Shown piece by piece: positions 8,389 through 63,755 of a stretch of 64,000 nt of DNA. Within the stretch, counting starts at the first letter, position 1. Each line of letters opens with the position of its first letter. The notes beneath the pieces are model-generated. The model was not told where the DNA came from. It ran no database searches and saw only the letters and a list, made by a program, of their open reading frames with translations. The position numbers and the translations under genes were made by a program. Where the stretch lies: the NCBI RefSeq assembly GCF_023146395.1, contig NZ_JAGLCD010000002.1, positions 1 to 64,000 of the forward strand. The letters run 5' to 3'. The stretch comes from Aeromicrobium sp. GTDB lineage: Bacteria; Actinomycetota; Actinomycetes; Propionibacteriales; Nocardioidaceae.

Positions 8389-8434
8389 CCCTCGGCTCGC
8401 TCTAACCAGCTCATCTCACGACCAAGGAGAAGGC

Positions 8435-9181
8435 ATGAGCTCACTGGAATCCAAGACAGTTCTCGTCACCGGCGGTGCCGGGCCCGACATGGGCAGGCTC
8501 ATCGTCACGATGTGTCTGGACGCCGGCGCCCACGTGATCGCCGTTGATGCCAGTGAGAAGAATCTTGAGTCGCTCGCTGCGGACCGGCCCGATGTCATCG
8601 CGGTGCACGCTGACATCTCTCAGCCCGCCGAGGTCGATCGCGCCGTGGCGGCTGGTCCCGGCCCCGTCGATGTCCTGTTCAACCACGCCGGGATCAGTGA
8701 GAAGATCGGCGTCGTCGACGAGGTCGACGACGCCGACTGGGACCGTGTCATGAACGTCAACCTGCGAGCTCCCTTTCTCTTCTCGAAGCGCGTCCTTCCC
8801 TCCATGGTCGAACGCGGTGGGGGCATCATCGTGAACACAGCGTCGGTGTCGGGCTTGCGTGGAGCGCGCGGGGGAGCCGCCTATACCGCGTCCAAGTTCG
8901 GCGTGGTGGGGCTCACGCTTCACATCGCCGCCACGTACGGCAGCAGGGGCATCCGTTGTAACGCGGTCGCGCCAGGGGGCATGGGAAGCAAGCCTGATCC
9001 GAACAAGCGGGTCAACCACTTCACCGATCGGGGCCTCGAGCTGCTGAGCCGCGATCGCGGGAAGCCGGACACGGCGCCGGCAGAGCAGGTCGCGTCTGTG
9101 GCGTACTTCCTGGCAACCGATGCGGCCCAACGCCTCAACGGTGCCGTGATTCCCGTCGACGGCGGGTGGATCGCCTACTAG
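8435..9181 (+). CDS. Short-chain dehydrogenase/reductase (SDR)
   Basis: The product has 248 residues, preceded by AAGGAGAAGG. The nucleotide-binding glycine motif is VTGGAGPDMG (11-20), the conserved NHAG is at 83-86, the catalytic serine is Ser137, and YTASK supplies Tyr150 and Lys154. The C-terminal PVDGGW is typical of classical SDRs. It probably interconverts an alcohol and a ketone, or a hydroxyacyl-CoA and a ketoacyl-CoA. Asp38 at the end of the second strand favours NAD(H). The substrate cannot be told from the sequence. Confidence 0.88.
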   Translation: MSSLESKTVLVTGGAGPDMGRLIVTMCLDAGAHVIAVDASEKNLESLAADRPDVIAVHADISQPAEVDRAVAAGPGPVDVLFNHAGISEKIGVVDEVDDADWDRVMNVNLRAPFLFSKRVLPSMVERGGGIIVNTASVSGLRGARGGAAYTASKFGVVGLTLHIAATYGSRGIRCNAVAPGGMGSKPDPNKRVNHFTDRGLELLSRDRGKPDTAPAEQVASVAYFLATDAAQRLNGAVIPVDGGWIAY

Positions 9182-9228
9182 CAGAGGCGCAGGGGGCGCG
9201 ATCGCGTCACCCGACGAAAGGATGACGC

Positions 9229-26261: not shown

Positions 26262-26315
26262 GCGCAGTGAGTCTCACGACATCGTGGGCACTGGGTGCGG
26301 GTGTGGGGTTTGGGC

Positions 26316-27410
26316 ATGGACTTCAACCACGTGCCCGCCGACGTGCGGTGGGCGATCGCGAACTGGCCCGATGATGCCGAGCGGGGTGCGGTCACGCGCT
26401 TCTGCGAGCGGCACCAGATCAGTCGGGCGGTGTTCTACAAGATCCGTCGCCAGGCCGGTGAGGTCGGTCCGGTCGGCGCGACAGAGCCGGGCTCACGGCG
26501 CCCCCATCACAGCCCGAACCGGACCGACGAGCAGTTGATCGAGCACGCGCTCGCCGTCCGAGCTTGGCTTACCGAGCAGGGGCTGGACGCCGGCCCCTTG
26601 TCCGTGCTCGCCCGGATGCGCCGCCAGGGGCTGAACCCGCCCTCAAGGGCCACGCTGGCTCGTGCGTTCGCTGCCGCTGGCGTGTCCAAGCCGGAACCGC
26701 GTAAGCGGCCGCGGGCGGCGAACCGCCGGTTCGTCTACCCGGCCCCGAACTGCTGCTGGCAGATAGACGCGTTCGCCTGGTCGCTGGCCGATGGCACCAG
26801 CGTGTCGATTCACCAGGTCATCGACGACCACTCCCGGATGGCCACCGCAAGCCTCGTCGCCGACGGCGAGACAGCCAGAGCCGCAGTGTTGGTCGTGTCT
26901 ACCGCGATCCGCCGCTGGGGCGTCCCGCAGCGGCTGCTCTCCGACAACGGGTTGGCGTTCAACCCCACCCGCCGCGGGTTCACCGGCAAGCTGGTCGACT
27001 ACCTGCTCGACCTCGGGGTCAAGCCCATCACTGGCAAACCGGACCGGCCGACAACCCAGGGCAAGAACGAACGGTTCCACCAGACGCTGCAGAAGTGGCT
27101 CAACGCCAGGCCACCAGCGAAGACAATCGAGGCCTTGCAGGCACTGGTCGACGAGTTCGACCTCTACTACAACAACGAACGAGCCCATCAAGCACTCGAC
27201 GGCAAGACCCCGGCCGAGGCGTGGGCCGCCACCCCGGCCGCACCCGAACCGACGCCTGAACCCCGCCTCCTGCAAATCCCGCCCTCGGCGCGCGCCACGA
27301 CCACCCGACCACCACCGAGACGACCACGATCGCTACCAGAACGCGGCTCACCCTCCACCCGGCAACAGGAGAGGCCATCGTCAAGGTCAGACCCAACGGG
27401 TGCAGGATGA
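26316..27410 (+). CDS. IS481-family DDE transposase with altered C-terminus
   Basis: The product has 364 residues from the ATG at 26316, and the open frame begins at 26295. A helix-turn-helix (RFCERHQISRAVFYKIRRQ) precedes the DDE core, with Asp151 in QIDAFAW, Asp210 in LLSDNGLAF and Glu252 in KNERFHQTL. After about residue 315 the sequence becomes a Pro/Arg/Ser-rich tail unlike the beta-rich C-terminus usual in this family. A matching C-terminal piece is found 3.5 kb away at about 30943-31086. The catalytic core is intact, so activity cannot be excluded, but the last domain is lost. Confidence 0.85.
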   Translation: MDFNHVPADVRWAIANWPDDAERGAVTRFCERHQISRAVFYKIRRQAGEVGPVGATEPGSRRPHHSPNRTDEQLIEHALAVRAWLTEQGLDAGPLSVLARMRRQGLNPPSRATLARAFAAAGVSKPEPRKRPRAANRRFVYPAPNCCWQIDAFAWSLADGTSVSIHQVIDDHSRMATASLVADGETARAAVLVVSTAIRRWGVPQRLLSDNGLAFNPTRRGFTGKLVDYLLDLGVKPITGKPDRPTTQGKNERFHQTLQKWLNARPPAKTIEALQALVDEFDLYYNNERAHQALDGKTPAEAWAATPAAPEPTPEPRLLQIPPSARATTTRPPPRRPRSLPERGSPSTRQQERPSSRSDPTGAG

Positions 27411-46461: not shown

Positions 46462-47277
46462 GGCTCGGGGATCGTGGAGGTCAACGCTCGCGCGGGGATC
46501 GACGTCGTGCTGGTGGAGGTCTCGCCGGAGGCGGTCAAGGCCGCCGAGGCGCGGGTCACGTCCTCGCTGGATCGCGCGCTGGGTCGCCAGAAGATCAGCC
46601 AGGAGGACTTCGACGCCACGCTGGAGCGGATCCGGTTCACCGACGACCTGGAGCAGCTGGCCGATCGTCATCTGGTGATCGAGGCGGCGTCGGAGCGTGA
46701 GGACATCAAGCTCGACCTGTTCCGCCGCCTGGGCCAGATCGTGACGGACGACCAGGCGATCCTGGCCTCGAACACGTCCTCGATCCCGATCGTGAAGCTG
46801 GGCGCCGTCTCGGGCCGTGCAGACCGGGTGATGGGCGTGCACTTCTTCAACCCGGCTCCGGTCATGAAGCTCGTCGAGCTGATCCCGTCGCTGACCTCCT
46901 CGCCGGAGACGCTCGAGCGGATGCGCGGCTACGTGACCGACGGTCTGGGCAAGGACCCGATCGAGGCCACCGACCGGGCAGGCTTCGTGGTCAACAGCCT
47001 GCTGGTGCCGTACCTGCTCAGCGCGATCCGCATGTACGAGGCGGGCTACGCGTCGGCGGCCGACATCGACCAGGGCATGGTCCTGGGCTGTGGTCACCCG
47101 ATGGGTCCGCTGGCCCTGTCGGACCTGATCGGTCTGGACACGATTCGCGCGATCTGTCAGTCGATGTACCAGGAGTTCAAGGAGCCGCTGTACTCGCCGC
47201 CGCCGCTGCTGGACCGCATGGTCGACGCCAGCCTGCTGGGCAAGAAGTCCGGCCACGGCTTCTACGTTCACACGTGA
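46462..47277 (+). pseudogene. 3-hydroxyacyl-CoA (3-hydroxybutyryl-CoA) dehydrogenase, 5'-truncated
   Basis: Homology begins abruptly at GSGIVEVNARAGIDVVLVEV. The normal first 13 or so residues with the start of the GxGxxG cofactor motif are missing, and a TAG lies in frame at 46453-46455. From there the gene is intact to its end, with SNTSSIPIVKLG, MGVHFFNPAPVMKLVELIPS, DRAGFVVNSLLVPYLL and CGHPMGPLALSDLIGLDT. A GTG at 46474 could start a 267-residue protein, but without the cofactor glycines it would be inactive. The sharp loss of the 5' end marks a deletion or recombination joint with the island on its left. Confidence 0.85.
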
Positions 47278-47454: not shown

Positions 47455-47871
47455 TCAGGGTGCGGTTCGGGATGGCAGTGCGCGGCCGTGCGCACGGAAC
47501 AGCGCGATGATCGCCCCGTCGCCGCGAGTGACGGTAACGTCGTAGACACTATTGCGGCCGAACCGGACCTGCTCTCGTGCCTCCGCACGAAGAACGTCGC
47601 CCAAGAATGCCGGTTGGACGAACACGATGTCGGCCTTGGCCGCGACCGAGACTTGCCGACTGTTGACCGCGCAGGCGAACACGGTGTCGGCAAAAAGGAA
47701 GATCTGTCCGCCGTGACAGGTCTCGTAACCGTTGACCATTTCAGCCGTTACGGTCATTTCGCCGTCCGCAGCACCGTCAGCAAAGCGCGTGATGCGAATT
47801 CCGTCGCGCTGCGCGGCGGCGTCGTTCGTGAATATCTCCTCTGACGAGGCGTTGGCCATACGCTGCGTCAT
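47455..47871 (-). CDS. PaaI-type hot-dog acyl-CoA thioesterase
   Basis: The product has 138 residues from the ATG at 47871, which overlaps the LuxR stop as ATGA. The hot-dog helix and strand pattern VNGYETCHGGQIFLFADTVF is that of PaaI thioesterases, and AKADIVFVQPAFLGDVLRAE follows. PaaI releases CoA from dead-end phenylacetyl-CoA derivatives. Coupling to a GAF-LuxR regulator and nearness to a PaaK-like ligase suggest a similar protective role for the second pathway. Confidence 0.85.
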   Translation of the reverse strand: MTQRMANASSEEIFTNDAAAQRDGIRITRFADGAADGEMTVTAEMVNGYETCHGGQIFLFADTVFACAVNSRQVSVAAKADIVFVQPAFLGDVLRAEAREQVRFGRNSVYDVTVTRGDGAIIALFRAHGRALPSRTAP

Positions 47872-48698
47872 GCCAGCACCCCAGAGGACCGCGCGGCCGA
47901 AACGGCTGCGTGGCGGCTGTGCACGCCGAAGGTTCGGCGGAGGCCGCACATAGCCGCACGAACCGAGGCGATGTCGATGTGAAGAGTCCCCGCGATGCTG
48001 AGATCGCTGTGTCCGGACGCGGCAAGCTCAAGGACCGCCAGCTCACGACTCGAGAGTTGTGGCGCCTGTTCCGGCGAGTCGAGCCCCCGCAGCACTGATA
48101 GAAGCGATTCGCAGATCCGAGTCCCCTCGCCGCGAAGCGCGTCGTCTGTTTCTTCCGACAGCGAGGTCAGGATCTTTTCTGCGGAGGCGAGGCAGTTCTC
48201 TCGCAGCAGAGTCGGTGCGCGTTCGAGCCCAACGCTCGCTGAGGGTGACGACATCGGGAGGGTCTGAAGCTCGCGGCCGAGTCGATCGCCAACAGATACG
48301 AGGCGATTGACGACATCATCGCCGAATGAGCAGGCGGCGCGAGTGCCCCCGTAGAGGACCGCCCGGACAGTGCCGTTTGCGCGAACCGGGATCGCGACCA
48401 TTGCTCGGAGGCCTTCGCTCGCGACAGCGGTGTCGTACTCGTGCGAAATGGATCTGGCGCTCGTGTAGTCACGAACGAACACCGGACGACCGACGATCAT
48501 CGCCTTGCCACCCAGCCCGGCGTTGGGCGGCAGGGACAGGCCGTGCAGGGAGTCGGAACGATTGCCGGCCAGCCGGCTGATGCGCAGAGCGCCTGACCGG
48601 ACATGACCTGCGAAGACGACGGGCAGGCCGGATTCGGAATGGCCGTCTTCGACGGCTCGATCCAAGGCCCCCGCCGTGGTCAGCTCAGTGCTCGGCAT
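47868..48698 (-). CDS. GAF-domain LuxR-family transcriptional regulator
   Basis: The product has 276 residues. Residues 1-150 look like a GAF sensor domain (GLSLPPNAGLGGKAMIVGRP, VRDYTSARSISHEYDTAVAS, LRAMVAIPVRANGTVRAVLY). The C-terminal 60 residues are a LuxR-type helix-turn-helix, LSSRELAVLELAASGHSDLS then IAGTLHIDIASVRAAMCGLR. GAF-LuxR proteins often activate aromatic-acid catabolic genes when a CoA ester or acid binds. It is divergent from the small LuxR gene at 48799 and coupled to the thioesterase gene. Confidence 0.85.
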   Translation of the reverse strand: MPSTELTTAGALDRAVEDGHSESGLPVVFAGHVRSGALRISRLAGNRSDSLHGLSLPPNAGLGGKAMIVGRPVFVRDYTSARSISHEYDTAVASEGLRAMVAIPVRANGTVRAVLYGGTRAACSFGDDVVNRLVSVGDRLGRELQTLPMSSPSASVGLERAPTLLRENCLASAEKILTSLSEETDDALRGEGTRICESLLSVLRGLDSPEQAPQLSSRELAVLELAASGHSDLSIAGTLHIDIASVRAAMCGLRRTFGVHSRHAAVSAARSSGVLA

Positions 48699-48798
48699 TC
48701 AGAACGTACCTTTCGATAACTGCGCTCTTGCATGCGAGCGCTCGCTCAGGCAATGTAACATAGGTCACGTCGTGGTTGCGTCTCTCTGGAGGAAAGCA

Positions 48799-49149
48799 GT
48801 GGAGCACAAGGGGGCATTGTCGGTTCGTGAACTCGAGGCGCTGCGTCGGGCGTTCGCCGCTCTGCGCGGGCTCGCTACGCGCGGTGAGGACGGTCGCGTC
48901 AGGCAGGAGTTTCGCGCCCGCGCCCAAAGCCTCCTTCCGGTCCGCGACGGTGGCATCGGTCTGTCGGACCGGGAAGTCGATGTGCTCGCGTATGCCGCCA
49001 CCGGACTGAGGAATGCTGAGATCGCGAACGCCCTGGCGCTCTCACCGGAGACCGTGAAGAGCTACCTGAGTTCGGCTCGGTTCAAGTTGGGAGCGATCAA
49101 TCGACATGAGGCAGTTGCCATGGCGCGTCGTGCGGGCGTGTTGCCGTGA
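48799..49149 (+). CDS. Short LuxR-type HTH regulator
   Basis: The product has 116 residues from a GTG six bases after GGAGG (48788-48792). The open frame reaches 48676 but lacks a better start. The N-terminal half is a helical segment (VRELEALRRAFAALRGLATR). The C-terminal half is a LuxR HTH, LSDREVDVLAYAATGLRNAE then IANALALSPETVKSYLSSAR. There is no receiver or sensor domain. It ends with the same kind of sequence (RHEAVAMARRAGVLP) as the larger LuxR protein, so it may act with it or be a truncated paralogue. Confidence 0.8.
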   Translation: MEHKGALSVRELEALRRAFAALRGLATRGEDGRVRQEFRARAQSLLPVRDGGIGLSDREVDVLAYAATGLRNAEIANALALSPETVKSYLSSARFKLGAINRHEAVAMARRAGVLP

Positions 49150-49182: not shown

Positions 49183-49764
49183 CTACGGCAGCAGCCGAGA
49201 CATCACGAGTTCGATTTGCTCGTCAGCAACAATTTTCGGTTCGGTTCCGCGGAGGGCCCACCCCTTAAGTGCGGGCAGATGACCGAGAAGAATAATGTCC
49301 TGTGCCAGAACCAATGCTTCAACGGGCCGGAACTCTCCACGTCGTACTCCAGTAGAAATTACATCGGCGAACGTGCTGCTAATGCCGACCTCGCGCTCTT
49401 GGTACTGCCGGTGGGCCTGGTCGGGTAGGTGCCGATACTCGCGGTACATCAGAAGGATCTGGTCACGGTTTCGGACACACTCGGCAAGGTAAGTGCCAAT
49501 CATCAGTCGCAGCTTGTCGTCCAGCTCGAGATCCGCCCCGGTTGCGACCTCGGCGAGCCTCTCTCGCAGGCCGCCGTAGATGGACTCACAAGCCATGACC
49601 AAGAGGTCTGACTTCGTCTGGATGTAGCGGTACAGGCCCCCGACGCTCATCCCGAGATCCTCGGCGAGCTCGTTGACCGACACCCGGTCAAATCCCCGCT
49701 CCATGATGTGCCTCGTAGCGACCTTCTGAACGTGGTCGAGACGCTGAGCCCGAGTTTGCCTCAT
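49183..49764 (-). CDS. TetR-family transcriptional regulator
   Basis: The product has 193 residues. The DNA-binding domain is VATRHIMERGFDRVSVNELA then EDLGMSVGGLYRYIQTKSDL. The ligand domain contains MYREYRHLPDQAHRQYQERE, resembling the broken TetR at 44715. It is divergent from the B12-mutase operon. The perfect palindrome GTCACA-C-TGTGAC (49843-49855) in the gap is a candidate operator for both directions. Bases 49216-49229 within its 3' end repeat the TTGCTCGTCAGCAA core of the operator at 42446, which may be coincidence. Confidence 0.9.
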   Translation of the reverse strand: MRQTRAQRLDHVQKVATRHIMERGFDRVSVNELAEDLGMSVGGLYRYIQTKSDLLVMACESIYGGLRERLAEVATGADLELDDKLRLMIGTYLAECVRNRDQILLMYREYRHLPDQAHRQYQEREVGISSTFADVISTGVRRGEFRPVEALVLAQDIILLGHLPALKGWALRGTEPKIVADEQIELVMSRLLP

Positions 49765-50089: not shown

Positions 50090-50518
50090 ATGGATACGCC
50101 CGTCAGAGTCCTGGTGACGAAGATCGGTCTTGACGGCCACGATCGAGGCAGTCGAATCATTGCGGCATATTTGCGCGACGCTGGTCACGAAGTCGTCTAC
50201 ACACCTCCGTGGCAGACGCTTGAAGCGGTAGTTCGATTGGCCGTGCAGGAGGACATCGAGGTCATCGGGATCTCCTCACTCGCCACCGACCACCTGATCG
50301 TGCCGGACCTCATTCAGGAACTCGTCTCGGCAGGTTTGGACGACGTGGCGGTCGTGGTTGGCGGGATCGTGCCCGACAGCGAACATGCGGCTTTGACGGA
50401 CGCTGGGGTCGCGCGCATCTTCGGGCCTGGCTCTTCTCGTGACGACATCGTCAACGCAGTGTCGGACCTCGGTGCGCAGGTCCAGCAGCGGCGTCGGCAG
50501 ACGGAGGTGTCGGCATGA
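50090..50518 (+). CDS. B12-binding small subunit of an acyl-CoA mutase
   Basis: The product has 142 residues from the ATG at 50090, after GGAAGG. The cobalamin motif DxHxxG is intact in [20 protein letters not shown], whose histidine replaces dimethylbenzimidazole on cobalt. [11 protein letters not shown] and [11 protein letters not shown] complete the flavodoxin-like B12 domain. It is the separate small subunit found in 2-hydroxyisobutyryl-CoA- and isobutyryl-CoA-type mutases, not the fused form of methylmalonyl-CoA mutase. It overlaps the large-subunit gene as ATGA. Confidence 0.93.
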
Positions 50519-52179
50519 CCGCAGTCGAAAACCACCTCAGTCCGAGCGAGCGCTGGGCGCACGAGTATGCGTCGCAGGTCGATCCGTCGGGTGTCGTGCG
50601 CAATCGATCCGGGATCGAGATTGCGCCGCTGTACACCCCGCAGGACTGGTCAGGCGATCGGTACGCTGCCGACCTCGGATTTCCGGGTCAGGAGCCCTAC
50701 ACCCGTGGCATCTATCCCTCGATGTACCGAGGGCGGACTTGGACCCAGCGTCAGCTGATTGGTCTGGGCACCCCGGCTGACTACAACGCACGGGTTCGCC
50801 AGCTGTTGGACCTGGGGTCCACCGCGATCAGCTTGCTGCCCTGCAACTCTGGATTTAGAGGTCTTGACTGCGATGAGGTTCCAGCGCCGCTGCTCGGAAC
50901 TTGCGGCACCGTGATCAACAATGTCGACCACATGGACACCGCCCTCGACGGCGTACCCCTCGGCTCGATCTCGACCGCAATGAACGATCCGACGCCGTTC
51001 ACGCTGCTCGCCTTCGTGCTCGCGACCGCGCAACGCCGTGGCGTGCCTTTCGATCGCATCACGGGGACGTCGAACCAGTCCGACTACATCTCCCACTTCG
51101 TCGCCAACCACATGTTCTACCGGCTGTCGCAGCCAGGTTCCCGGCGGGTGCTGGTGGACCACGTTGCCTACTGCCGGGAGCGGGTGCCCGGGTGGAACCC
51201 GGTCTCCGTCGTTGGCCAGCACATGCAGCAGGCAGGAGCCACGCCGGCCGAGACCATGGGCTTCACGCTCTCGACGGCCATCCAGTATGCGGAGGACTGC
51301 ATGGCGAAGGGTCTGCACCCAGATGCGATCCTGCCGCGCTTCACGTTCTTCTTCGATATCTCCATCTCGTTCTTCGAGGAGATCGCGAAGTTCAGGGCTG
51401 GCCGGCGAATTTGGGCCCGCATCGCGCGAGAGCGCCTTGGCGCCAAGGATCCACGTTCGTGGAGGTTCAAGTTTCACGGGCAGACCTCGGGCGTAGACCT
51501 CACGGCACAGCAGCCGCTCAACAACGTTGCGCGGGTGGCGACGCAGGCGATCACCGGCATCTTCTCGGGTCTTCAGTCGATGCATACCGATGCTTACGAC
51601 GAAGCGATCACGTGTCCGACTGAGGAGTCGGCACGCATTGCCGTGGCCACGCAGAACATCCTGCGGGAGGAAGCCCATCTCTGCGACGTGATCGATCCGC
51701 TCGGTGGCTCGTACTACATCGAGCGTTTGACCGACCAGATGGAGGAAGAGATTCTTCGGGTGATGCAGGTCATCGACGATGCTGGAGGAATGTACGCAGC
51801 CGTCGGTTCCGGTCTCGTGCAGGGCATGATCGGACGGTCCGCGCTTGCAGCTCAGGAACGCATCGACAGCGGCGATGAGAAGGTCATCGGAGTCAACTGC
51901 TTCCAGAGTGACGGGTCAGATGTCGAGCAGCCGCCTCCCTATCGGCCCGACCGGGCGGCCATGGATGCGCACGTTCAAGAGTTCCGCGAGTACAAGCGGA
52001 ACCGAAGCGAGCGTGACGTGAGCCGCGGTATTGACGGTCTGCGTCGAGCAGCGGAGGACGAGAGCTTGAACGTCTTCGCCAGTGTCGTCGAAGCCGCTGG
52101 CGCGGGCGTCACCCACGGTGAAATCGTCGCGACCCTGCGAGATGAGTTGGGGTTCGGCGATCCGTTGATCGTGGCATGA
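50515..52179 (+). CDS. Divergent B12-dependent acyl-CoA mutase, large subunit
   Basis: The product has 554 residues. The TIM-barrel substrate domain of the methylmalonyl-CoA mutase family is clear ([83 protein letters not shown]). The catalytic-base histidine is kept (His236). The specificity residues differ: Tyr89 of methylmalonyl-CoA mutase is Leu81, and Arg207 aligns with Ala197 (or Asn198 with a one-residue gap). Most strikingly, the near-invariant FDxxTxxGYDSDHP loop is [18 protein letters not shown] (105-122). The leucine recalls Ile90 of 2-hydroxyisobutyryl-CoA mutase. The substrate is unknown and probably not methylmalonyl-CoA. Confidence 0.9.
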
Positions 52180-53066
52180 CCAGCTTGGCTGCGGGCGTCA
52201 TTGCTGGTGATCAAGCCAGCCTGGCCCGCGCCATGTCGATACTGGAGCGGGGTGGGTCTGATGCGGAGGCACTCCGGTCGACTTTGGCGCGGCACACAGG
52301 GACGGCCTCGGTGATCGGAGTGACTGGGCCGCCTGGAGCAGGAAAATCCTCCCTGGTCGGTGCGATGGTCGGTTCGCTTCGGGCGCGCGGTACGAACGTG
52401 GCCGTCCTGGCGGTGGATCCGTCCAGTCCGGTTTCGGGAGGCGCCGTGCTCGGGGATCGAACCCGGATGGGTGCCCACACGACCGATCCCGGCGTGTTCA
52501 TTCGATCGATCGCTTCCCGTGGGCACCCCGGTGGACTCGCCCGCGCTGTGCCCGCCTTGATCGATGCGATCGACGCAGCTGGGTGGGAAGTGGTGATCCT
52601 TGAAACAGTGGGCAGTGGGCAGTCGGACATTGACATCGTCGAGTACGCCGACGTCGCAGTTCTCGTCTCCGTGCCTGGGCTTGGGGACGATATCCAGGCC
52701 ATCAAGGCGGGCGTGCTGGAGATCGCCGACGTGTTGGTGGTGAACAAGGCGGATCTTCCAGGCGCTGAGCAGACAGCCCGTGAGCTTGAACGCATGCTCC
52801 GACTTCGGGCAACAGACGCAGTCCGCCCGCCCGTCGTTCGGACGTCGGTTGCCGATGGGACGGGAGTCCCGGCGTTACTGGACGCCCTTGACGGAGTTTC
52901 CAAGACGAAGGGTCGGCATCGCCGGCTCCGCCGCGAGATCACACGCGAAGCTGAGGCGGAGTTTGCTCGGCGTCTGCGCCCGGAGCAGCTCGATGCTGCC
53001 TGCGCTGCGGTGCTGGCCGGGAGCCGAGGTGTGGGAGAAGCGGCGAAGGAGCTCGCCGGATTTTGA
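52176..53066 (+). CDS. meaB: MeaB/ArgK-type GTPase, chaperone of the B12 mutase
   Basis: The product has 296 residues, overlapping the mutase stop as ATGA. G-protein motifs are [12 protein letters not shown] (Lys57), [20 protein letters not shown] (MeaB signature), [12 protein letters not shown] and the base-specificity motif NKAD. MeaB proteins load adenosylcobalamin and protect mutases during turnover. The operon order small subunit, large subunit, chaperone matches the MeaH arrangement of 2-hydroxyisobutyryl-CoA mutases. Confidence 0.93.
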
Positions 53067-53685: not shown

Positions 53686-55053
53686 TCAGCTCGACGCCTC
53701 TTCGAAGGCGGACGGGCGACGGTCGATGACTCGCTTGGCCTTGGACACGGCGCGTTCGAGTGTCTCGGGGTCGAGTACCTCGACGGAAAAATTGACGTTC
53801 GTGTCGTTCTTCAGTCGAGCCTTGATCGCCTGAGCGAGCTCGTCCTTGAACGTGCGCGGGTCGGCGGGACTGATGGTTGGGTCATGCTCTACGCGGACCG
53901 TGGCTTCATCCATCGCATCGGGTCGCTCAAGGACGACCACGAACTCGACTCCGGTACCAGGGACTGAGAGCAGGGAGCGCTGGACCTGGCTCGGGTAGAC
54001 GTTCGCCCCGCGAATGATCATCATGTCGTCGAGTCGCCCGTACACCCCGTTAGGCAGCCTGGGGTAGGTCCGCCCGCAGGCGCATGGTTCGTAGGACATG
54101 TGGGATTCATCTCGCGACGCAAACCGAATCATCGGCTGTGATTCGCGGTGGAGGTGCGTGTAAACCACACCGCCGCTTGTGCCTTCGGGCGCGGAACGGT
54201 TGGGGTCCTGCTTGTCGACGATTTCAGTCCACACTTGATCTTGAAGGACATGCACGCCACGCCCCTGCTCGCACTCGGCGTTGGAGGCGAACGGCGTCAT
54301 CTCCGAGGTCGTGGCGAGATCACGGACTGTCATGCCCCACCCTCGCTCCAAGACCTCACGGGTTCCGGGAATGGCGGCCCCGGGTTCGCCGATGAAGATG
54401 CCCAGCCGCAGTGGTGAAGCGGCGGTGTCGTAGCCAAGTGAACGGGCACGCTCGAGCATGTGCAGCGCATACGTCGGTGTGCAGATCAGCACAGTCGATC
54501 CCATGCGGTACATGAGTTCCAGCTGACGTTCCGTCTCGCCGGCACCGATCGGGAAGGCTGTCGCCCCAATTCGCTCACAACCGAGAAGCGAGCCCCAGCC
54601 TCCGATGAACATGCCGAACACCGTGGCGAGCTGGACCCGATCGGTCGGGCGAACCCCCGCTGTGTAGAACCCCTGTGCCATCACGTCAGCGATGTGGTCC
54701 CAGTCACGGTGAGAGATTCCGTAGAGCGTCGGAACTCCGGTCGTGCCGGACGAGCCGTGCACCCGTGCGATCTCGGATTCCGGCACCCCGAGGTAGCTCC
54801 CGAATGGAGGTGTCTCTGCCTGGTCTTCCCGAAGCATGGCCTTGGTGATCACAGGCACCAGTCGGGTGAAGTCTTCCAAGCAAGTCACTTGCCGAGGGTG
54901 GAAGTCGTGAGAGTCGTAGTGACGCCGGTAGAAGGGCAGCTCCTCGTAGACCCGATGCAACTGACGCTGCAACAGGCTGAGCACTCCGGCCTCTCGGTCC
55001 GGCCGGGACTGCGTCTCCCTTTGTTCGTTCCAGTAGGCACCATGGGTCTCCAT
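53686..55053 (-). CDS. Phenylacetate-CoA ligase (PaaK) family aryl/acyl-CoA ligase
   Basis: The product has 455 residues from the ATG at 55053 after GAGAGG. The frame reaches 55167, but the added residues do not fit. PaaK hallmarks are YWNEQRETQSRPDREAGVLS, the adenylation motif VHGSSGTTGVPTLYG, TSEMTPFASNAECEQGRGVH, and a C-terminal domain with GRLDDMMIIRGANVYPSQVQ. It activates a carboxylic acid, often aromatic, to its CoA ester. It is divergent from the Liv operon across a strong palindrome, and probably supplies the thioester that the nearby mutase rearranges. Confidence 0.9.
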   Translation of the reverse strand: METHGAYWNEQRETQSRPDREAGVLSLLQRQLHRVYEELPFYRRHYDSHDFHPRQVTCLEDFTRLVPVITKAMLREDQAETPPFGSYLGVPESEIARVHGSSGTTGVPTLYGISHRDWDHIADVMAQGFYTAGVRPTDRVQLATVFGMFIGGWGSLLGCERIGATAFPIGAGETERQLELMYRMGSTVLICTPTYALHMLERARSLGYDTAASPLRLGIFIGEPGAAIPGTREVLERGWGMTVRDLATTSEMTPFASNAECEQGRGVHVLQDQVWTEIVDKQDPNRSAPEGTSGGVVYTHLHRESQPMIRFASRDESHMSYEPCACGRTYPRLPNGVYGRLDDMMIIRGANVYPSQVQRSLLSVPGTGVEFVVVLERPDAMDEATVRVEHDPTISPADPRTFKDELAQAIKARLKNDTNVNFSVEVLDPETLERAVSKAKRVIDRRPSAFEEASS

Positions 55054-55101
55054 CGTGTACCGCCTCTCTCGGTTTCCCGGCTTGCAGGATGCCCTCCCTG
55101 A

Positions 55102-55153
55102 TAGTGAGGGACTACCCCCGAAATATGCTGCAATCCGGGGGTAGTGAGCGACT
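55102..55153. promoter_or_regulatory. Strong operator between the PaaK-like gene and livF
   Basis: A perfect ten-base inverted repeat ACTACCCCCG/CGGGGGTAGT (55111-55120 and 55136-55145) with a 15-base spacer is bordered by a direct repeat TAGTGAGGGACT/TAGTGAGCGACT (55102-55113 and 55142-55153). It lies 58 bases before the ligase start and 166 bases before livF. The C-rich/G-rich arms resemble sites of LuxR-type activators, and two such genes lie at 47.9-49.1 kb. Confidence 0.6.
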
Positions 55154-55318
55154 GATCGAGTCATCACAATTCGGTGGCATGACCCGAATCACTCTCGCCG
55201 ACCAGACCGGTCGAGTCCGTTCGCCTCAACGAGGTGGACGTATGCGCTCCGATTGGTCGCCAGTGCGAATCGCAGTGGATGTGACAGGAACGCGCCGGTG
55301 CAACGGCGCGTGGTTCCC

Positions 55319-56128
55319 ATGCTGAGCGCATCGGGGCTCGTGGTCGGGTACGGCGCAAACCGAAGTGTCCTGGACCGAGTTGACCTCTCAGTGCCGGACT
55401 CCGGGGTGGTAGCGGTCCTCGGGAGCAACGGCGCAGGCAAGTCCACCCTGCTGCGGACACTCTCGGGCACGCTGAGCTTCCACGGTGGCGCACTCCACGA
55501 TGGCCAGGTCAAGCTCGACGACCGGCCGATTCAGCGCCTTTCCGCAGCATCGATTGCCCGCGCCGGTGTGGTGCAGGTCCCTGAGGGCCGCAAGATCTTC
55601 GCGAAGATGACGGTCGAGGAGAACCTGCGAGTGGGTGCGGTCTGCACCCCGCCCGGTCGGAGGGCATCAGCCAGAGAACGCGTCATGGAGCTCTTCCCGC
55701 GGCTCGCTGAACGCCTGGAGCAGCGCGCCGGCTTGTTGTCGGGTGGTGAGCAGCAGATGTTGGCGATGGGGCGCGCTGTCATGGCGAGCCCCAGAGTGCT
55801 GCTCCTCGACGAACCTTCCCTCGGACTCGCGCCCAAGCTGATTGAGCAGATCGGCGACATCGTGACCGAGATCAGCGCGCAAGGAACGCCGGTAGTGCTG
55901 GTGGAGCAGAACGCTGCGATGGCGTTGCGGGTTGCTGCCACCGCGGTGGTGCTCGAGGTCGGTCGTGTGGCCATGAGCGGCGAGGCCGAGCAGCTGAAGG
56001 ACTCCGACGGGATTCACGACCTCTATCTCGGTGGACACTCGCATCCTGCCGCCCAGGACGTTGACGGAGAAGTGGAGGGCGAGGCGACCGATCTGCCCCG
56101 TCGTCGCCTGGCGAGGTGGACGGCATGA
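55319..56128 (+). CDS. livF: Branched-chain-type ABC transporter ATP-binding protein LivF
   Basis: The product has 269 residues from the ATG at 55319. Walker A is GSNGAGKST, VPEGRKIFAKMTVEENLRVG is characteristic of LivF, the signature is LLSGGEQQMLAMGRA, and Walker B is VLLLDEPSLGLAPK. The C-terminal 30 residues beyond LGGHSHP are extra. It is the first gene of livFGHM plus a binding protein, all overlapping or nearly so. The ribosome site is weak. Confidence 0.9.
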   Translation: MLSASGLVVGYGANRSVLDRVDLSVPDSGVVAVLGSNGAGKSTLLRTLSGTLSFHGGALHDGQVKLDDRPIQRLSAASIARAGVVQVPEGRKIFAKMTVEENLRVGAVCTPPGRRASARERVMELFPRLAERLEQRAGLLSGGEQQMLAMGRAVMASPRVLLLDEPSLGLAPKLIEQIGDIVTEISAQGTPVVLVEQNAAMALRVAATAVVLEVGRVAMSGEAEQLKDSDGIHDLYLGGHSHPAAQDVDGEVEGEATDLPRRRLARWTA

Positions 56129-56964
56129 AACCAACCTCGGACGGGACCACCGCAGCAGAGTCGACCTACGTGCCAGAGCTGCACGTGCGCAATGTCACCG
56201 TGCGATTCGGAGGCCTCGCGGCACTCACGGATGTCTCCTTCACGGTCAAGCCCGGCACCATTCACGCCCTGATTGGGCCTAACGGTGCGGGCAAGTCCAC
56301 CTGCTTCAACGTGGTGTCTGGTCTCTATCCGGTCGATGAGGGAGACGTCCGATTCGGACCCTCGGACCTGATGAGCACTGCCCCGCATCAGCGAGTCTCG
56401 CTCGGCATCGGACGAGCGTTTCAGAACACTGCGCTGTCAGGCCATGTCACGGTGTTGGACAACGTCATGCTCGGCCGCCATGCCCTGACGCGTGGCGGGT
56501 TCCTCTTGGCTGGCCTTCGGTCACCGAGGATGCGCAAGGAACAGCAACTCCACCTCGATCGAGTCGTCGAGATATGCGAGTTCCTCGGGTTGGGAGACCA
56601 TCTGCAGCGGCCGGTCGGTCAGCTGTCGTACGGCGACCAGAAGCGTGTCGATGTCGCTCGAGCGCTAGCCACGGAACCGAAGCTCCTGATGCTCGATGAG
56701 CCGGCCGCGGGGATGAACGACGCTGAGACGTCAGTCATGGCGCAACTGATCAGCGACATTCGGTCCAGCCTGGGGATCTCGGTGCTCCTCGTCGAACACG
56801 ACATGTCCCTGGTCATGAGCATTGCCGACCACGTGACCGTCCTCGACTTCGGTCGCGGAATTGCCGATGGAACCCCGAGCCAGATTCGCACGTCCCCTGA
56901 AGTGATCAGGGCATACCTCGGCGGCGGGGAAGGTCCCGCTGTCCTGCAGGAGGAACTCAGCTGA
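56125..56964 (+). CDS. livG: ABC transporter ATP-binding protein LivG
   Basis: The product has 279 residues from the ATG at 56125 (overlap ATGA, preceded by GAGGTGG). Walker A is GPNGAGKST, the LivG-type GIGRAFQNTALSGHVTVLDN is present, and Walker B is LLMLDEPAAGMNDAE. The signature is the variant QLSYGDQKRVDVARAL, usual in LivG proteins. It pairs with LivF to drive import. Confidence 0.92.
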   Translation: MKPTSDGTTAAESTYVPELHVRNVTVRFGGLAALTDVSFTVKPGTIHALIGPNGAGKSTCFNVVSGLYPVDEGDVRFGPSDLMSTAPHQRVSLGIGRAFQNTALSGHVTVLDNVMLGRHALTRGGFLLAGLRSPRMRKEQQLHLDRVVEICEFLGLGDHLQRPVGQLSYGDQKRVDVARALATEPKLLMLDEPAAGMNDAETSVMAQLISDIRSSLGISVLLVEHDMSLVMSIADHVTVLDFGRGIADGTPSQIRTSPEVIRAYLGGGEGPAVLQEELS

Positions 56965-57842
56965 TGAGCACGTTCATGCAACTGACGATCAACGGTGCAG
57001 GGAGCGGCGCGGTCTTTGCTCTCCTGGCCCTCGGATTCGTCATCATTTACAGGGCCAGCGGGGCGGTGAACTTCGCCCACGGATCACTGGTGCTCGTTGC
57101 CGGGTACATCACGGTTCGCGCTCAAGAGTCCATGGGAATCACCGTCGCGGCAATACTCGGGGTCCTAGGGGCCGGCGTGCTGGCGGTGATCATCGAACGC
57201 GTGCTTGTCGCACGCACCCGCGGTGGCGACCCCATTGCGCTGGTTCTCCTTACCATCGGCGTCGACGTCGTCATCGTCGAAGAGGTGGCGCGGCGCCTCG
57301 GGTCGTCCGCTCCCTTCGTCCGCGTTCCTTGGGCCAACGAAGTCATTCACGTGGGTCAGATCACTGTCCTAAAAGGGCAGATCGTCGCGCTCTGTTTCGG
57401 GCTCGTGATCATCGCCGTCTTGTTCGCACTCTTCCGATTCACCGGATGGGGACTCGCCATGCGAGCGCAAGCAGAGCACCGCGAGGCAGCAGCACTCATG
57501 GGAGTCCGCAATACCCAGGTCACGGCAGCCGCCTGGCTCATCGCCGGGGTTCTCGCCGGCATCGCAGTGCTTTTCCTGGCAACGCCGGATTTCGCTGGCG
57601 GCGGTGTGTCGCGTGCGACGCACAGTCTGGTGCTGGTGGCGTTTCCCGCTGCGATCATCGGCGGGCTCGATTCAACGAATGGGGCCGTGATCGGCGGCTT
57701 CATTGTGGGGCTGACCGGGGCATACAGCCAGCAGTACGTCTCCTTCGAGTTCGCCAGAGTCGCGGTCTACCTCGTCATGTTGGCGGTCCTCGTCGTACGG
57801 CCGTCGGGACTTTTTGGGACCAAGGAGGTCCAACGTGTCTAA
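56964..57842 (+). CDS. livH: ABC transporter permease LivH
   Basis: The product has 292 residues, sharing one base with the livG stop. It has about eight membrane helices. Family motifs are GAGSGAVFALLALGFVIIYR, GAVNFAHGSLVLVAGY and RFTGWGLAMRAQAEHREAAA. The C-terminal VVRPSGLFG is typical of LivH. The gene overlaps livM by eight bases. Confidence 0.92.
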   Translation: MSTFMQLTINGAGSGAVFALLALGFVIIYRASGAVNFAHGSLVLVAGYITVRAQESMGITVAAILGVLGAGVLAVIIERVLVARTRGGDPIALVLLTIGVDVVIVEEVARRLGSSAPFVRVPWANEVIHVGQITVLKGQIVALCFGLVIIAVLFALFRFTGWGLAMRAQAEHREAAALMGVRNTQVTAAAWLIAGVLAGIAVLFLATPDFAGGGVSRATHSLVLVAFPAAIIGGLDSTNGAVIGGFIVGLTGAYSQQYVSFEFARVAVYLVMLAVLVVRPSGLFGTKEVQRV

Positions 57843-59025
57843 CTCACCGAACAGGCTGCATGTTGCCGGCGCCACCTCCGACCGGTCTCAAGTCCTTGAC
57901 CGCAACGAACCGACTCCCACCAGGCCATGGAGCAGATCGAGCAGGGGACGGCTCGTCAGGATCGCTAGCGGGGTTGTCGCCTTGGTCGTGGCGCTCGCTC
58001 TCCCGCTCTACGTCAGCGAGGTGTGGCTCCGCGTCTTCGAGTACGCCATGGTCGGAGCCGTGGCCGCCATCGGCCTCACCCTGCTGAGCGGACACTGTGG
58101 GCAGCTTTCGCTCGGAACGCCATTCTTCATGCTGGTCGGTGGGACCGCCTACGCCGCACTCGCGGCCGACGCGGAAGCCGGGTCGGATCTCGTCGGCATT
58201 GGTCTTCCCCCCGTGATCGCGATCGTAGGTGCTGTCGTCGTATCGTCCCTGGCTGGTCTCGCGTTCGCTCCCGTGGCTGGTCGAGTCAGCGGCATCTATC
58301 TAGCGGTGGCGACCCTCTCCTTGGTCTTTCTTGGGCTCTATCTTGGGCAGCGGTTCACGGAGTTCACTGGCGGTGCTGCCACAGGGCGCCCGGCTCCGCC
58401 CTTCACGATCTTCGGCTTCTCGTTGACGACTCGTGAACCCGAATTGACCGTGCTTGGCGTTCCGTTCGGTGCTCAGGAACGCATGTGGTACCTCTTCCTC
58501 ATCCTGGTCATCGGCGGGATCTTCTTGGCCTTGGGGGCGGTCCGATCCCGACCGGGGCGGTCGTGGCGGGCCGTCAGGGACAACCCCGCCTCGGCTGCGG
58601 CGATGGGTGTCAACGTTGCTCGTGCTCGAGCCACGGCCTTCGCCGTTTCGGCAGGCTACGCCGGTCTCGCCGGGGTCATGATGGTGCTCTGGTTTGGACT
58701 GCTGAAGGCTGACGAGAACGAGTTTCAAGGCTCGTGGTCGATCGCGGCTGCGATCAGCCTGCTAGCCATCGTCATCATCGGCGGGTTGGGGTCGGTGTGG
58801 GGTGCCGTACTCGGAGCGGCCTTCGTGTTTGGCCTTCCTCTTGCGCTCAGGCTGCTCGTGCCGAGCGTTCCGCTGCTTGCCAGCATCACCGAAGGATCAG
58901 GGGGATTCACGCCTTCGGTGATCACTGCATTCGCCTACGGGTCGTTGATCGTGCTGGTCGTGATCTTCGAACCCGGCGGGCTGGCCGCCATCGGCCGGCG
59001 AATCACCGCAAGGTTCGGCCGCTGA
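57835..59025 (+). CDS. livM: ABC transporter permease LivM
   Basis: The product has 396 residues from a GTG just after AAGGAGG (57824-57830), inside the end of livH. A charged N-terminus of about 45 residues precedes ten or so membrane helices. Motifs are AAIGLTLLSGHCGQLSLGTP, VRDNPASAAAMGVNVARARA and VIIGGLGSVWGAVLGAAFVF. It forms the translocation pore with LivH. Confidence 0.92.
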   Translation: MSNSPNRLHVAGATSDRSQVLDRNEPTPTRPWSRSSRGRLVRIASGVVALVVALALPLYVSEVWLRVFEYAMVGAVAAIGLTLLSGHCGQLSLGTPFFMLVGGTAYAALAADAEAGSDLVGIGLPPVIAIVGAVVVSSLAGLAFAPVAGRVSGIYLAVATLSLVFLGLYLGQRFTEFTGGAATGRPAPPFTIFGFSLTTREPELTVLGVPFGAQERMWYLFLILVIGGIFLALGAVRSRPGRSWRAVRDNPASAAAMGVNVARARATAFAVSAGYAGLAGVMMVLWFGLLKADENEFQGSWSIAAAISLLAIVIIGGLGSVWGAVLGAAFVFGLPLALRLLVPSVPLLASITEGSGGFTPSVITAFAYGSLIVLVVIFEPGGLAAIGRRITARFGR

Positions 59026-59083: not shown

Positions 59084-60304
59084 ATGAAAATCACTCGCTC
59101 GCTGGTCGCCGCCGTGACGGTCGGCACCCTCACCCTCGCATCATGTGGGGGAACCAAGTCGGAGTCAGAAAACACCGGGGTGACCGACGACACGATCAAG
59201 CTTGGTGTGCTGACGGACCTGTCCGGCCCGTTCCTCGAGCTGTCGGAGGCCATCCTCGCGGGCAATGAGATCTGGGTCGAGCAGGTCAACGCCTCGGGAG
59301 GGGTCTGCGGTCGCGACGTCGAACTTGTCGTCCGCGACCATGGGTACGACGCGGATGCTGGCGTCGTCGCCTACCAGGAACTTGAGTCGCAGGTCTTGGG
59401 GTTCATGCATGTCCTTGGATCGCCGATCAATGCCGCACTCGATCAGAATTATCTCGACAACGAGACCACGACGGTCGCGCTGTCTTGGTCGTCCTTCATC
59501 CTGAAGAACCCTTACATCATCGTCCCGGGGACGACGTTCGACGTTGAGATGATCAACGGGCTCTCCTACCTGATGGAGCAAGGACAGATCAAGCCGGGAG
59601 ACACGATCGGACACATCTACCTTGAAGGCGAGTACGGGGAGAACGGTCTACTCGGTGCTGAGTACTTCGCCGCGCAGCACGACCTCACCATCGAGAAGGT
59701 CAAGGTGCTTCCGACCGACTCTGACTTGCGCAACGCGGTCACGGGACTCAAGGGCAGCAATGTGGCGGCCATCGCGATGACCACCACGCCGGCGCAGACG
59801 CTCAACGTGGCGGTTGTCAACCAGCAGCTTGGTTTGGATGTCCCGATTGTCGGGAACAACCCGGCGTTCGGCCCTAACATCCTGACGCCAGAGACGGCCG
59901 ACGCCCTGCGGAACGTGTACGTCGTTGCCTCGGCCACGCCCTACACGTCCGATGTGCCGAAGGCGCAGGAAGTTGCGGATCTCTTCGAAGCGCGCGGCGA
60001 CGGTGTACCCCACGCCGGGGTCCCCTACGGCTACGCGATCGGCGAGATCTGGGGCCAGCTTCTCGAGGGCACTTGCGATGATCTGACGCGCGAGGGCGTG
60101 AAGAAGGCCAAGGACGAAGCCGACTCACTGGACACGGAGGACCTCGTGGCCGAGCTGGACTTCTCGAGTCCCGGAAGCCCGGCTACTCGGGCGGTCTACG
60201 TGGCGGTCCCGAACATCGACACCCCCGGCGGTCTCGATCAGCAGGGCGAGCTCTTCGTCTCGGAGGACGCTGAGACGTACCGGGCGCCGGAGCAGCAGGA
60301 CTGA
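59084..60304 (+). CDS. Branched-chain-type substrate-binding lipoprotein
   Basis: The product has 406 residues. The lipoprotein signal is VTVGTLTLASCGGT with the lipid-modified cysteine in LASC. The type-1 periplasmic binding fold follows: KLGVLTDLSGPFLELSEAIL and GHIYLEGEYGENGLLGAEYF. AIAMTTTPAQTL leads into the hinge. The gene comes after AAGGAG, 58 bases after livM. Such proteins bind amino acids but also aromatic and other carboxylates. With the PaaK-like ligase and mutase nearby, a carboxylate ligand is likely. Confidence 0.92.
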   Translation: MKITRSLVAAVTVGTLTLASCGGTKSESENTGVTDDTIKLGVLTDLSGPFLELSEAILAGNEIWVEQVNASGGVCGRDVELVVRDHGYDADAGVVAYQELESQVLGFMHVLGSPINAALDQNYLDNETTTVALSWSSFILKNPYIIVPGTTFDVEMINGLSYLMEQGQIKPGDTIGHIYLEGEYGENGLLGAEYFAAQHDLTIEKVKVLPTDSDLRNAVTGLKGSNVAAIAMTTTPAQTLNVAVVNQQLGLDVPIVGNNPAFGPNILTPETADALRNVYVVASATPYTSDVPKAQEVADLFEARGDGVPHAGVPYGYAIGEIWGQLLEGTCDDLTREGVKKAKDEADSLDTEDLVAELDFSSPGSPATRAVYVAVPNIDTPGGLDQQGELFVSEDAETYRAPEQQD

Positions 60305-60825: not shown

Positions 60826-61464
60826 TCAGTGCCTGTTCTCGAAGACGTGCGGCTCCGTTCGGGAGCGAACGTCTGCGAGAGCAACGTCTGGCGCAAGCTC
60901 GATGAGTTGAAGTCCGTCGGGTGTGATGTCGAGGACGCACAGGTCGGTGATGATGCGCTGGATCACGCCGCGGCCCGTGTAGGGGAGCGAGCACTCCTCG
61001 ACGATCTTGTAGGCGCCGTCACGGGCGACGTGCTCCATGAGCACGATGACGCGGCTGGCCCCGTGGACGAGGTCCATCGCCCCGCCCATGCCCTTGACCA
61101 TCTTTCCGGGGATCATCCAGTTGGCGATGTCGCCGCCGGCTGAAACCTGCATCGCGCCGAGGATCGCGGCGTCGACCTTGCCGGCACGGATCATGCCGAA
61201 GCTCGTGGCGGAGTCGAAGAAGCTCGCGCCCGCACGGACCGTGACGGTCTCCTTGCCGGCGTTGATGAGGTCCGGGTCGACCGCGTCGTCGGTCGGGTAC
61301 GCGCCGGTGCCGAGGATCCCGTTCTCGCTCTGCAGCACGAGCTCGACGTCGTCGGGCACGTAGTTCGGCACGAGGGTCGGCAGCCCGATGCCGAGGTTGA
61401 CGTAGTCGCCGTCGCTGAGCTCGGCGGCGGCGCGGGCCGCCATCTGCTCCCGGTTCCACGCCAT
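60826..61464 (-). CDS. pcaJ: 3-oxoacid CoA-transferase, subunit B (PcaJ/ScoB type)
   Basis: The product has 212 residues, starting one base after the subunit A stop. The catalytic glutamate is Glu47 in [11 protein letters not shown], and [11 protein letters not shown] and [19 protein letters not shown] are family marks. It transfers CoA from succinyl-CoA to 3-oxoadipate or acetoacetate. The divergent IclR gene next door favours the 3-oxoadipate (pca) role, but ScoAB cannot be excluded. Confidence 0.88.
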
Positions 61465-61465
61465 C

Positions 61466-62257
61466 TCAACGCACCTCGTTCTCGGTGGGGGTGGGGCGGA
61501 CCGTGCGCTTCTCGATGCGCTTGTCCTGCGCCTGCTCGGGCGTCAGCGGCACGACGCGGTGCACGTAGACGCCGGGCAGGTGCACGTGGTTCGGGTCGAT
61601 CTCTCCCGGCTCGACGAGGTGCTCGACCTCCGCGACCGTGACGCGGCCCGCCATCGCGGCGAGCGGGTTGAAGTTGCGGGCGGCGTCCTTGAAGACGAGG
61701 TTGCCGTGGCGGTCGCCCTTCCAGGCGCGAACGAGCCCGAAGTCGGAGACGATCGCCTCCTCCAGGACGTAGTCGCGCTCACCGTCCGCGGTGTCGAAGG
61801 TCATGACGGGCTTCTCCGGCGACTGCCGGACGACGGCGCCGGAGGCGTCGTAGCGCCAGGGCAGCCCGCCCTCGGCGACCTGGGTCCCCACGCCGGTGCG
61901 GGTGTAGAACGCTGCGATGCCGGACCCGCCCGCGCGCATCCGCTCGGCCAACGTTCCCTGCGGCGTGAGCTCGACCTCGAGCTCACCGGAGAGGAACTGC
62001 CGGGCGAACTCCTTGTTCTCGCCGACGTACGAAGCCACGACGCGTCGGAGCCGCCCGGCCGAGAGCAGCAGACCGAGCCCCCAGTCGTCGACCCCCGCAT
62101 TGTTTGACACGACCTCGAGGTCGCGCGTGCCGGCGTCCAGGAGGGCCTGGATCAACGTGGAGGGGATGCCGCAGAGGCCGAATCCGCCCACCGTGAGCCT
62201 CGCGCCGTCGGGCACGTCGGAGATCGCGTCGGCGGCCGAGCTGATGACCTTGTCCAT
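61466..62257 (-). CDS. pcaI: 3-oxoacid CoA-transferase, subunit A (PcaI/ScoA type)
   Basis: The product has 263 residues. The CoA-binding motif is [20 protein letters not shown], and [15 protein letters not shown] and [20 protein letters not shown] are typical. It forms a heterodimer with the next gene product. The C-terminal 25 residues ([20 protein letters not shown]) are charged. The region is uniformly very G+C-rich, like core genes. Confidence 0.88.
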
Positions 62258-63167: not shown

Positions 63168-63755
63168 TCACGGAGACAGGCCCGCCAGCGCCGAGATCGC
63201 CAGCTGCTCGAGCAGGGCCGCCATCTCGTGGCCCTCAAGTCGGGCGCTGTGCGGGGTGGAGTTGATCAGTCCGAAGACGGCGTGCGCGGCGGACCGCGAG
63301 TGGGCGTCGTCGGCGCCGGTCGTGGCGCGGACGACGCGGACCCACAGCTCGACGTACTGGCGCTGCAGGCGACGGACCGTGCGTCGATCGTCCTGGCCCA
63401 GGCTCTCCAGGTCACGGAACTGCACGCTGATCAGGGCCGGTCGGGTCAGCGCGAACTCGACGTGCCAGCGCACCAGGGCGAGCAGCTCGGCGCGAGGGCC
63501 ATCGGCCGCCGCGGCCTCGGCCCGGCGCAGGCCCTCGGCGAGCAGGAGCTCGGAGATGTCGACCAGCATCGTGCCGAGCAACGCCTCCTTGCTCGTGAAG
63601 TGCTTGTACAGCGCAGGCCCGGAGGTGCCGACGGCTCGGCCGATCTCGTGCATCGACACGCCGTGGAAGCCCTGGACGGCGAACAGGCCGGCCGCGACCT
63701 CGACGATCTGCTGGCGACGGCCAGCGGGTGGGGGTGCTGCAGCGTCGACGTCCAC
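63168..63755 (-). CDS. TetR-family regulator of the adjacent acyl-CoA dehydrogenase
   Basis: The product has 195 residues. The DNA-binding domain is AAGLFAVQGFHGVSMHEIGR then AVGTSGPALYKHFTSKEALL. It resembles actinobacterial regulators of fatty-acid or acyl-CoA dehydrogenase genes. It is divergent from an acyl-CoA dehydrogenase gene across two palindromes (63786-63828), which are its probable operators. Confidence 0.9.
   Translation of the reverse strand: MDVDAAAPPPAGRRQQIVEVAAGLFAVQGFHGVSMHEIGRAVGTSGPALYKHFTSKEALLGTMLVDISELLLAEGLRRAEAAAADGPRAELLALVRWHVEFALTRPALISVQFRDLESLGQDDRRTVRRLQRQYVELWVRVVRATTGADDAHSRSAAHAVFGLINSTPHSARLEGHEMAALLEQLAISALAGLSP

Follow-up and report, generated by a model that had tools for sequence, protein, structure and literature searches.

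A probable pivalyl-CoA mutase-type operon in Aeromicrobium, likely to feed leucine-type catabolism

The window analysed here is a stretch of 64,000 nucleotides from an Aeromicrobium sp. (G000:C12:1-64000; draft genome of 2.82 Mb, 83% complete). It contains the operon of a B12-dependent acyl-CoA mutase, whose small subunit, large subunit and MeaB-type chaperone are encoded by three overlapping genes (Table 1). The operon is genuine. Stop and start bases are shared at both junctions, and the matches to curated families exceed the cut-offs for the small subunit (TIGR00640, 135.7 bits, cut-off 57.45), the large subunit (TIGR00641, 460.8 bits, cut-off 303.8; also PF01642, 544.8 bits) and MeaB (TIGR00750, 271.9 bits, cut-off 240.75). 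The open reading frames and these matches thus confirm the complete operon described in an earlier note on this DNA. That note also placed the start of the small subunit at 50090, which is likely: GGAAGG in the preceding stretch and the N-terminus of the protein, [20 protein letters not shown], both agree with it.

Relatives of the large subunit are scattered among bacteria. A scan of 84,980 species genomes, restricted to six eight-residue patterns from the query, gave 41 loci at 53-87% identity. The nearest were in Nocardioides sp. Root140 (87%) and Prescottella (85%), then in an Acidimicrobiales draft; the others came from many Alpha- and Gammaproteobacteria, some Betaproteobacteria, and single Nitrospira and Rokubacteria drafts. 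A plasmid search gave 418 records at E ≤ 1e-30, of which the best six are 58.6-72.5% identical. Xaut_5043, encoded on plasmid pXAUT01 of Xanthobacter autotrophicus Py2, is 72.1% identical to the window protein. Some mutase (E ≤ 1e-60) occurs in 194 of the 196 genomes of the host order, the best outside the own genome being 42% identical, and no close copy was found in any other genome searched in the order (196) or the phylum (396). The own genome also encodes an IcmF-type protein and, on contig C4, a separate two-gene pair of the methylmalonyl-CoA mutase (MCM) type. In a careful tree (53 rows) the window protein belongs to a clade of 44 rows (support 100/100), within which it shares a subclade of 19 rows with Xaut_5043 (100/99); a quick tree (61 rows) agrees. 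We take Xaut_5043/5044 to be the native isovaleryl-CoA/pivalyl-CoA mutase (PCM) and Xaut_5042 its chaperone; PCM was reportedly characterised by Kitanishi, Cracan and Banerjee (J Biol Chem 2015).

Active-site residues were compared by aligning 43 complete members of the clade with 15 outgroup rows; MCM numbering is one higher than the printed chain index, as a check on the Y89F mutant chain 5req showed. The MCM residues that we presume to act in the active site are Tyr89, Arg207, Tyr243, Asn366 and His244. At the first four positions the window protein has Leu81, Asn198, Gln235 and Asp359, each present in 43 of the 43 clade members and in none of the 15 outgroup rows. His236, the counterpart of His244, is retained in all 43, and Pro109, Cys110 and Cys130 are likewise clade-wide (43/43). 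Since all of them are conserved across the clade, the changes are not chance. The earlier note had already recognised Leu81, the catalytic His236 and the loop [18 protein letters not shown] at the FDxxTxxGYDSDHP position, and the alignment agrees. For Arg207 it had given Ala197, or Asn198 under a one-residue gap. The second option is to be preferred, because Gln188 is the invariant Gln197 and the ten-residue spacing from Gln188 to Asn198 is the same as that from Gln197 to Arg207; Ala197 is the counterpart of the alanine that precedes the arginine in short MCM-type mutases. Gln235 and Asp359 are two further active-site changes that the note did not mention.

Known mutases were considered as alternative assignments. 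MCM (1req, 2xij) shares the fold, His244 and the DxHxxG motif with the window enzyme, but was rejected on its Tyr89/Arg207 pair, here Leu81/Asn198. HcmA, a 2-hydroxyisobutyryl-CoA mutase (HCM; 4r3u), was rejected on its Ile/Gln pair, and it keeps Tyr and Asn where the window clade has Gln235 and Asp359. Isobutyryl-CoA mutase (ICM) and IcmF were rejected on a Phe/Gln pair, which we took from the IcmF-type proteins L005 (own genome) and L050. IcmF (4xc6/5cjw) has the fold in common with the window enzyme, but it is a single fused chain with an internal G domain and shows ~27% identity in structural alignment. By its two specificity residues the enzyme is therefore neither MCM, HCM nor ICM, as the earlier note had claimed.

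Further divergent proteins of the family were seen. The own genome has two (G000:C10:51941-53473 and G000:C18:2867-4369, the latter match with one internal stop), both of which retain Tyr/Arg. In the relative locus L065, a divergent paralogue (8230-9948; 57% identical to the window protein) lies directly upstream of a standard clade member. Its residues are Val at the Tyr89 position and Ser/Leu around Arg207, which may mark another shift in specificity inside the clade.

We consider it probable that this is an actinobacterial PCM-type operon, whose enzyme would convert pivalyl-CoA to isovaleryl-CoA and feed leucine-type catabolism. The large subunit groups with Xaut_5043 in a clade separate from MCM and HCM; L81, N198, Q235, H236 and D359 are as in Xaut_5043; and a separate B12-binding subunit and a MeaB-type chaperone are encoded within one operon. 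The gene row of X. autotrophicus is also close to that of the window: TetR, B12 subunit, large subunit, MeaB, PaaD-type thioesterase, PaaK-family ligase, a second AMP-ligase and a Liv-type transporter. It differs in being plasmid-borne, in having another PaaK-family ligase and an extra AMP-ligase of 659 amino acids, and no carboxylase genes were found within the flanks examined. The earlier note had concluded that the protein fits no known class, a claim that arose because PCM was absent from its list of residue pairs. In the alignment and tree that it proposed as a check, the protein instead stands in a well-supported clade with a homologue that is 72% identical and has the same compared residues, which would overturn the claim provided that the identity of Xaut_5043 as PCM holds. 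The enzyme most likely belongs to a small, already recognised class, and the apparently new specificity would prove a known but rare one.

We read the whole locus as an acquired module for pivalate, or 2,2-dimethylacyl compounds, covering uptake, CoA activation, B12-dependent rearrangement and leucine-type catabolism. Pivalate or a similar 2,2-dimethyl acid would enter the cell, perhaps through the Liv-type ABC transporter, and be activated to its CoA ester by the neighbouring ligase. The adenosylcobalamin-dependent two-subunit mutase, with its MeaB chaperone, would then turn pivalyl-CoA into isovaleryl-CoA: the 5'-deoxyadenosyl radical would abstract a methyl hydrogen, and the thioester carbonyl would undergo a 1,2 migration helped by His236. 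With Tyr89 and Arg207 replaced by Leu81 and Asn198, the carboxylate clamp would be gone, leaving room for the uncharged tert-butyl group. Isovaleryl-CoA could be taken to acetyl-CoA by the acyl-CoA dehydrogenase, the methylcrotonyl-CoA-carboxylase-like genes and the 3-oxoacid CoA-transferase further along the contig. That such a rearrangement is within reach of the family is suggested by IcmF, a related mutase described in passages of two articles as interconverting pivalyl-CoA and isovaleryl-CoA (PMC10481361, PMC9974510), and solved, according to the PDB titles, with pivalyl-CoA and isovaleryl-CoA (5cjw, 5cjv).

Table 1. Genes of the mutase locus and its surroundings on contig C12.
Feature	Position	Strand	Basis
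Hotdog thioesterase (PaaI/PaaD type)	47455..47949	-	TIGR02286, TIGR00369
TetR-family regulator, divergent from mutase operon	49183..49764	-	PF00440
Mutase small subunit, B12-binding domain	50090..50518	+	TIGR00640, PF02310; LDGHDRG (DxHxxG) motif
Mutase large (catalytic) subunit, 554 amino acids	50515..52179	+	PF01642, TIGR00641, residue census, trees, fold
MeaB-type GTPase chaperone	52176..53066	+	TIGR00750, PF03308
PaaK/HCL-type acyl-CoA ligase	53686..55167	-	closest solved structure 6hdw
Liv-type ABC transporter ATPase (LivF-like)	55253..56128	+	clusters with annotated ABC transporter genes in L078, L080, L081
Liv-type ABC transporter ATPase (LivG-like)	56116..56964	+	clusters with annotated ABC transporter genes in L078, L080, L081
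Liv-type permease (LivH-like)	56964..57842	+	sequence and operon position; no family scan
Liv-type permease (LivM-like)	57814..59025	+	sequence and operon position; no family scan
Liv-system substrate-binding lipoprotein	59084..60304	+	sequence and operon position; no family scan
3-oxoacid CoA-transferase subunit B	60826..61464	-	TIGR02428 above cut-off
3-oxoacid CoA-transferase subunit A	61466..62257	-	TIGR02429 above cut-off
TetR gene, left end of cluster running past the window	63168-63755	-	
Acyl-CoA dehydrogenase, cluster running past the window	from 63856	+	
CitE-like gene (same contig)	65548-66381		
Methylcrotonyl-CoA-carboxylase-like beta subunit (same contig; followed by a biotin carboxylase family gene)	66381-67934		

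The ligase beside the operon, whose true start is possibly ~38 codons further in, scored 357.3 bits against the 2-hydroxyisobutyryl-CoA synthetase (HCL) structure 6hdw and at most 236.9 bits against phenylacetate-CoA ligases; its match to TIGR02155 (296.6 bits) is far below the cut-off (646.3). The ligase of the Roseiarcus relative behaves likewise (359 against 257 bits), and ligases 67-89% identical to that of the window (piecewise in L074) occur near the mutase in L037, L038, L044 and L074. Their sequences thus ally the ligases of the window and of Roseiarcus with an enzyme for a compact tertiary C4 acid, an argument against an aromatic substrate. Of the transporter proteins, the LivH-like permease has 31-34% identity to stretches near the mutase in L037, L054 and L062, and the lipoprotein 27% to a stretch in L037.

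The neighbourhoods of 46 relative loci, several with short flanks, show which of these genes travel together. A small-subunit match adjoins the large subunit in 44 loci, a TetR match adjoins the mutase genes in 40 and a MeaB match in 35, while a thioesterase match is near the mutase in 19. Eight loci have Liv-type transporter genes nearby (L037, L045, L053, L054, L062, L078, L080, L081). Methylcrotonyl-CoA-carboxylase-like genes adjoin the mutase in three loci: L050 (a groundwater betaproteobacterium), L070 (Ruegeria) and L082 (a Sulfitobacter plasmid), in the last of which they are accompanied by an acyl-CoA dehydrogenase, an enoyl-CoA hydratase and a biotin carboxylase. A thiolase at least 59% identical to that of L079 is near the mutase in six loci (L039, L041, L042, L052, L054, L079), which suggests that in these hosts the substrate may come from thiolysis of a longer chain. 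There was no MeaB match beside the mutase in L053, L055, L056, L057, L058, L059, L067, L068, L069 and L076, the rest of these genomes not having been searched; in these loci the thioesterase often comes directly after the mutase. The plasmid of Sphingobium sp. YC-XJ3 (L079, 7780-25000) carries two copies of the mutase module with its thiolase and AMP-ligase; IS6100 and IS1380-like elements lie close by, and the arrangement points to recent duplication and mobility.

On the contig of the window, the carboxylase beta gene starts 14.2 kb past the large subunit. Its best matches among solved structures include a carboxyl transferase domain protein (798 bits) and a methylcrotonyl-CoA carboxylase beta subunit (758 bits). 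The acyl-CoA dehydrogenase of the same cluster may act as an isovaleryl-CoA dehydrogenase. The carboxylase gene is present in all 26 genomes of the genus examined, including the own one. A conserved block of DNA shared with the sister genome G091 starts at C12:63180, and no DNA-level match was found to its left within the stretch compared. The G+C content of one-kilobase segments is 61-66% at 48-61 kb and 70-73% at 61-70 kb, and other parts of the contig also have 63-66%. We infer from these sequence features that the mutase-ligase-transporter segment was probably acquired and lies beside a resident carboxylase cluster, with the junction somewhere at ~60.3-63.2 kb.

Several observations weigh against the pivalyl-CoA reading or parts of it. 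The identity of Xaut_5043/5044 as the characterised PCM is presumed, and none of the papers searched names these locus tags. Both trees carry long-branch warnings, which in the careful tree concern outgroups and some inner rows, and it is therefore unsure where the clade stands with respect to HcmA and IcmF. The active site is poorly modelled by AlphaFold. The ligase of X. autotrophicus scores higher against plain PaaK (117 bits) than against HCL 6hdw (90 bits), and the ligase argument is thus limited to the actinobacterial and Roseiarcus type. The carboxylase beta subunit also matches AccD1, labelled as a probable acetyl-/propionyl-CoA carboxylase (791 bits), and one chain labelled as propionyl-CoA carboxylase (740 bits; other such chains ≤277). 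The downstream dehydrogenase falls below every NCBIfam equivalog cut-off, and among solved structures it comes closest to other acyl-CoA dehydrogenases (488 bits), against at most 277 bits for chains labelled isovaleryl. Given that G091 has the carboxylase cluster without the mutase and without the adjoining CoA-transferase genes (ScoAB), the proximity of mutase and carboxylase on this contig may be a coincidence. Among relatives, the carboxylase linkage in three of 46 loci against none of 20 control stretches around other mutases of the order is suggestive, but by itself not significant. The controls are all actinobacterial, and the three positive cases proteobacterial. No carboxylase-type genes were found in the flanks, some of them short, of the other 43 loci.

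The alternative that we judge least improbable, though unlikely, is that the enzyme, though within the PCM clade, naturally acts on a larger 2,2-dimethylacyl-CoA, derived from gem-dimethyl terpenoids, tert-alkylphenols or branched alkanes, pivalyl-CoA being only one of several substrates. Delivery of such an acyl-CoA by thiolysis would suit the L079-like thiolase of six relatives, and record titles among the relatives include Pseudomaricurvus alkylphenolicus and Cycloclasticus, names that suggest use of hydrocarbons or alkylphenols. However, beside the window copy we saw the HCL-like ligase but no L079-type thiolase, and the carboxylase linkage in L050, L070 and L082 points to isovaleryl-CoA itself.

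A new specificity class for an aromatic or otherwise bulky acyl-CoA seems much less plausible still. The missing carboxylate clamp would allow it, and so would the PaaK-superfamily ligase and the Liv transporter next door, a window thioesterase whose best NCBIfam model is PaaI (TIGR02286, 117.5 bits, slightly below the cut-off of 118.9; TIGR00369 is above its cut-off), and the annotation of neighbours of the X. autotrophicus mutase as PaaD and a putative phenylacetate-CoA ligase. Yet the enzyme shares its clade and residues with Xaut_5043, and the carboxylase linkage in relatives (3/46) and a ligase that matches 2-hydroxyisobutyryl-CoA synthetase better than phenylacetate-CoA ligases (357 against ≤237 bits) both point elsewhere. 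Of the aromatic or branched substrate proposed in the earlier note, the branched option is supported, whereas the aromatic one finds little in these data. Slightly less probable again is an isobutyryl-CoA or 2-hydroxyisobutyryl-CoA mutase with drifted residues: the specificity pair is neither the Ile/Gln of HcmA nor the IcmF-type Phe/Gln, structural alignments give 31% identity to HcmA and 27-28% to IcmF, identity to the order's mutases is 35-42% among the matches listed, and a long, fully supported stem sets the clade apart in both trees.

If the operon is of the PCM type, its interest lies in the chemistry. Quaternary carbons (tert-butyl, gem-dimethyl) resist ordinary beta-oxidation, and to our knowledge few enzymes break this block. 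The hosts of the clade are actinobacteria, several proteobacterial classes, and the single Nitrospira and Rokubacteria drafts, many being marine by record names. A broader and tentative idea, which we hold to be doubtful, is that the clade is a scattered, mobile family for quaternary-carbon catabolism. In this view, its subclades would have adapted the Leu/Asn/Gln/Asp pocket to 2,2-dimethylacyl-CoAs of different kinds, of which thiolysis would supply some. The module would also have become linked to leucine-catabolic genes more than once, as a ready-made pathway. The Leu81/Asn198/Gln235/Asp359 signature, with the occasional leucine-type carboxylase linkage, could serve as a simple genome search for pivalate-type degraders. 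It would also correct records that name such proteins methylmalonyl-CoA mutase, e.g., that of the X. autotrophicus plasmid.

Other genes of the window lie to the left of the operon. Between the thioesterase and the TetR gene there are two genes for LuxR-type regulators (47868-49149), one with a GAF domain. A 3-hydroxybutyryl-CoA dehydrogenase gene (46474-47277) has a second copy in the same genome (G000:C6:2611-3408), 92% identical. Further away, an integrase-core (rve) transposase-like gene (26295-27410) is surrounded by accessory catabolic genes encoding a P450, a pyridine nucleotide-disulphide oxidoreductase, an amidohydrolase and a luciferase-like monooxygenase.

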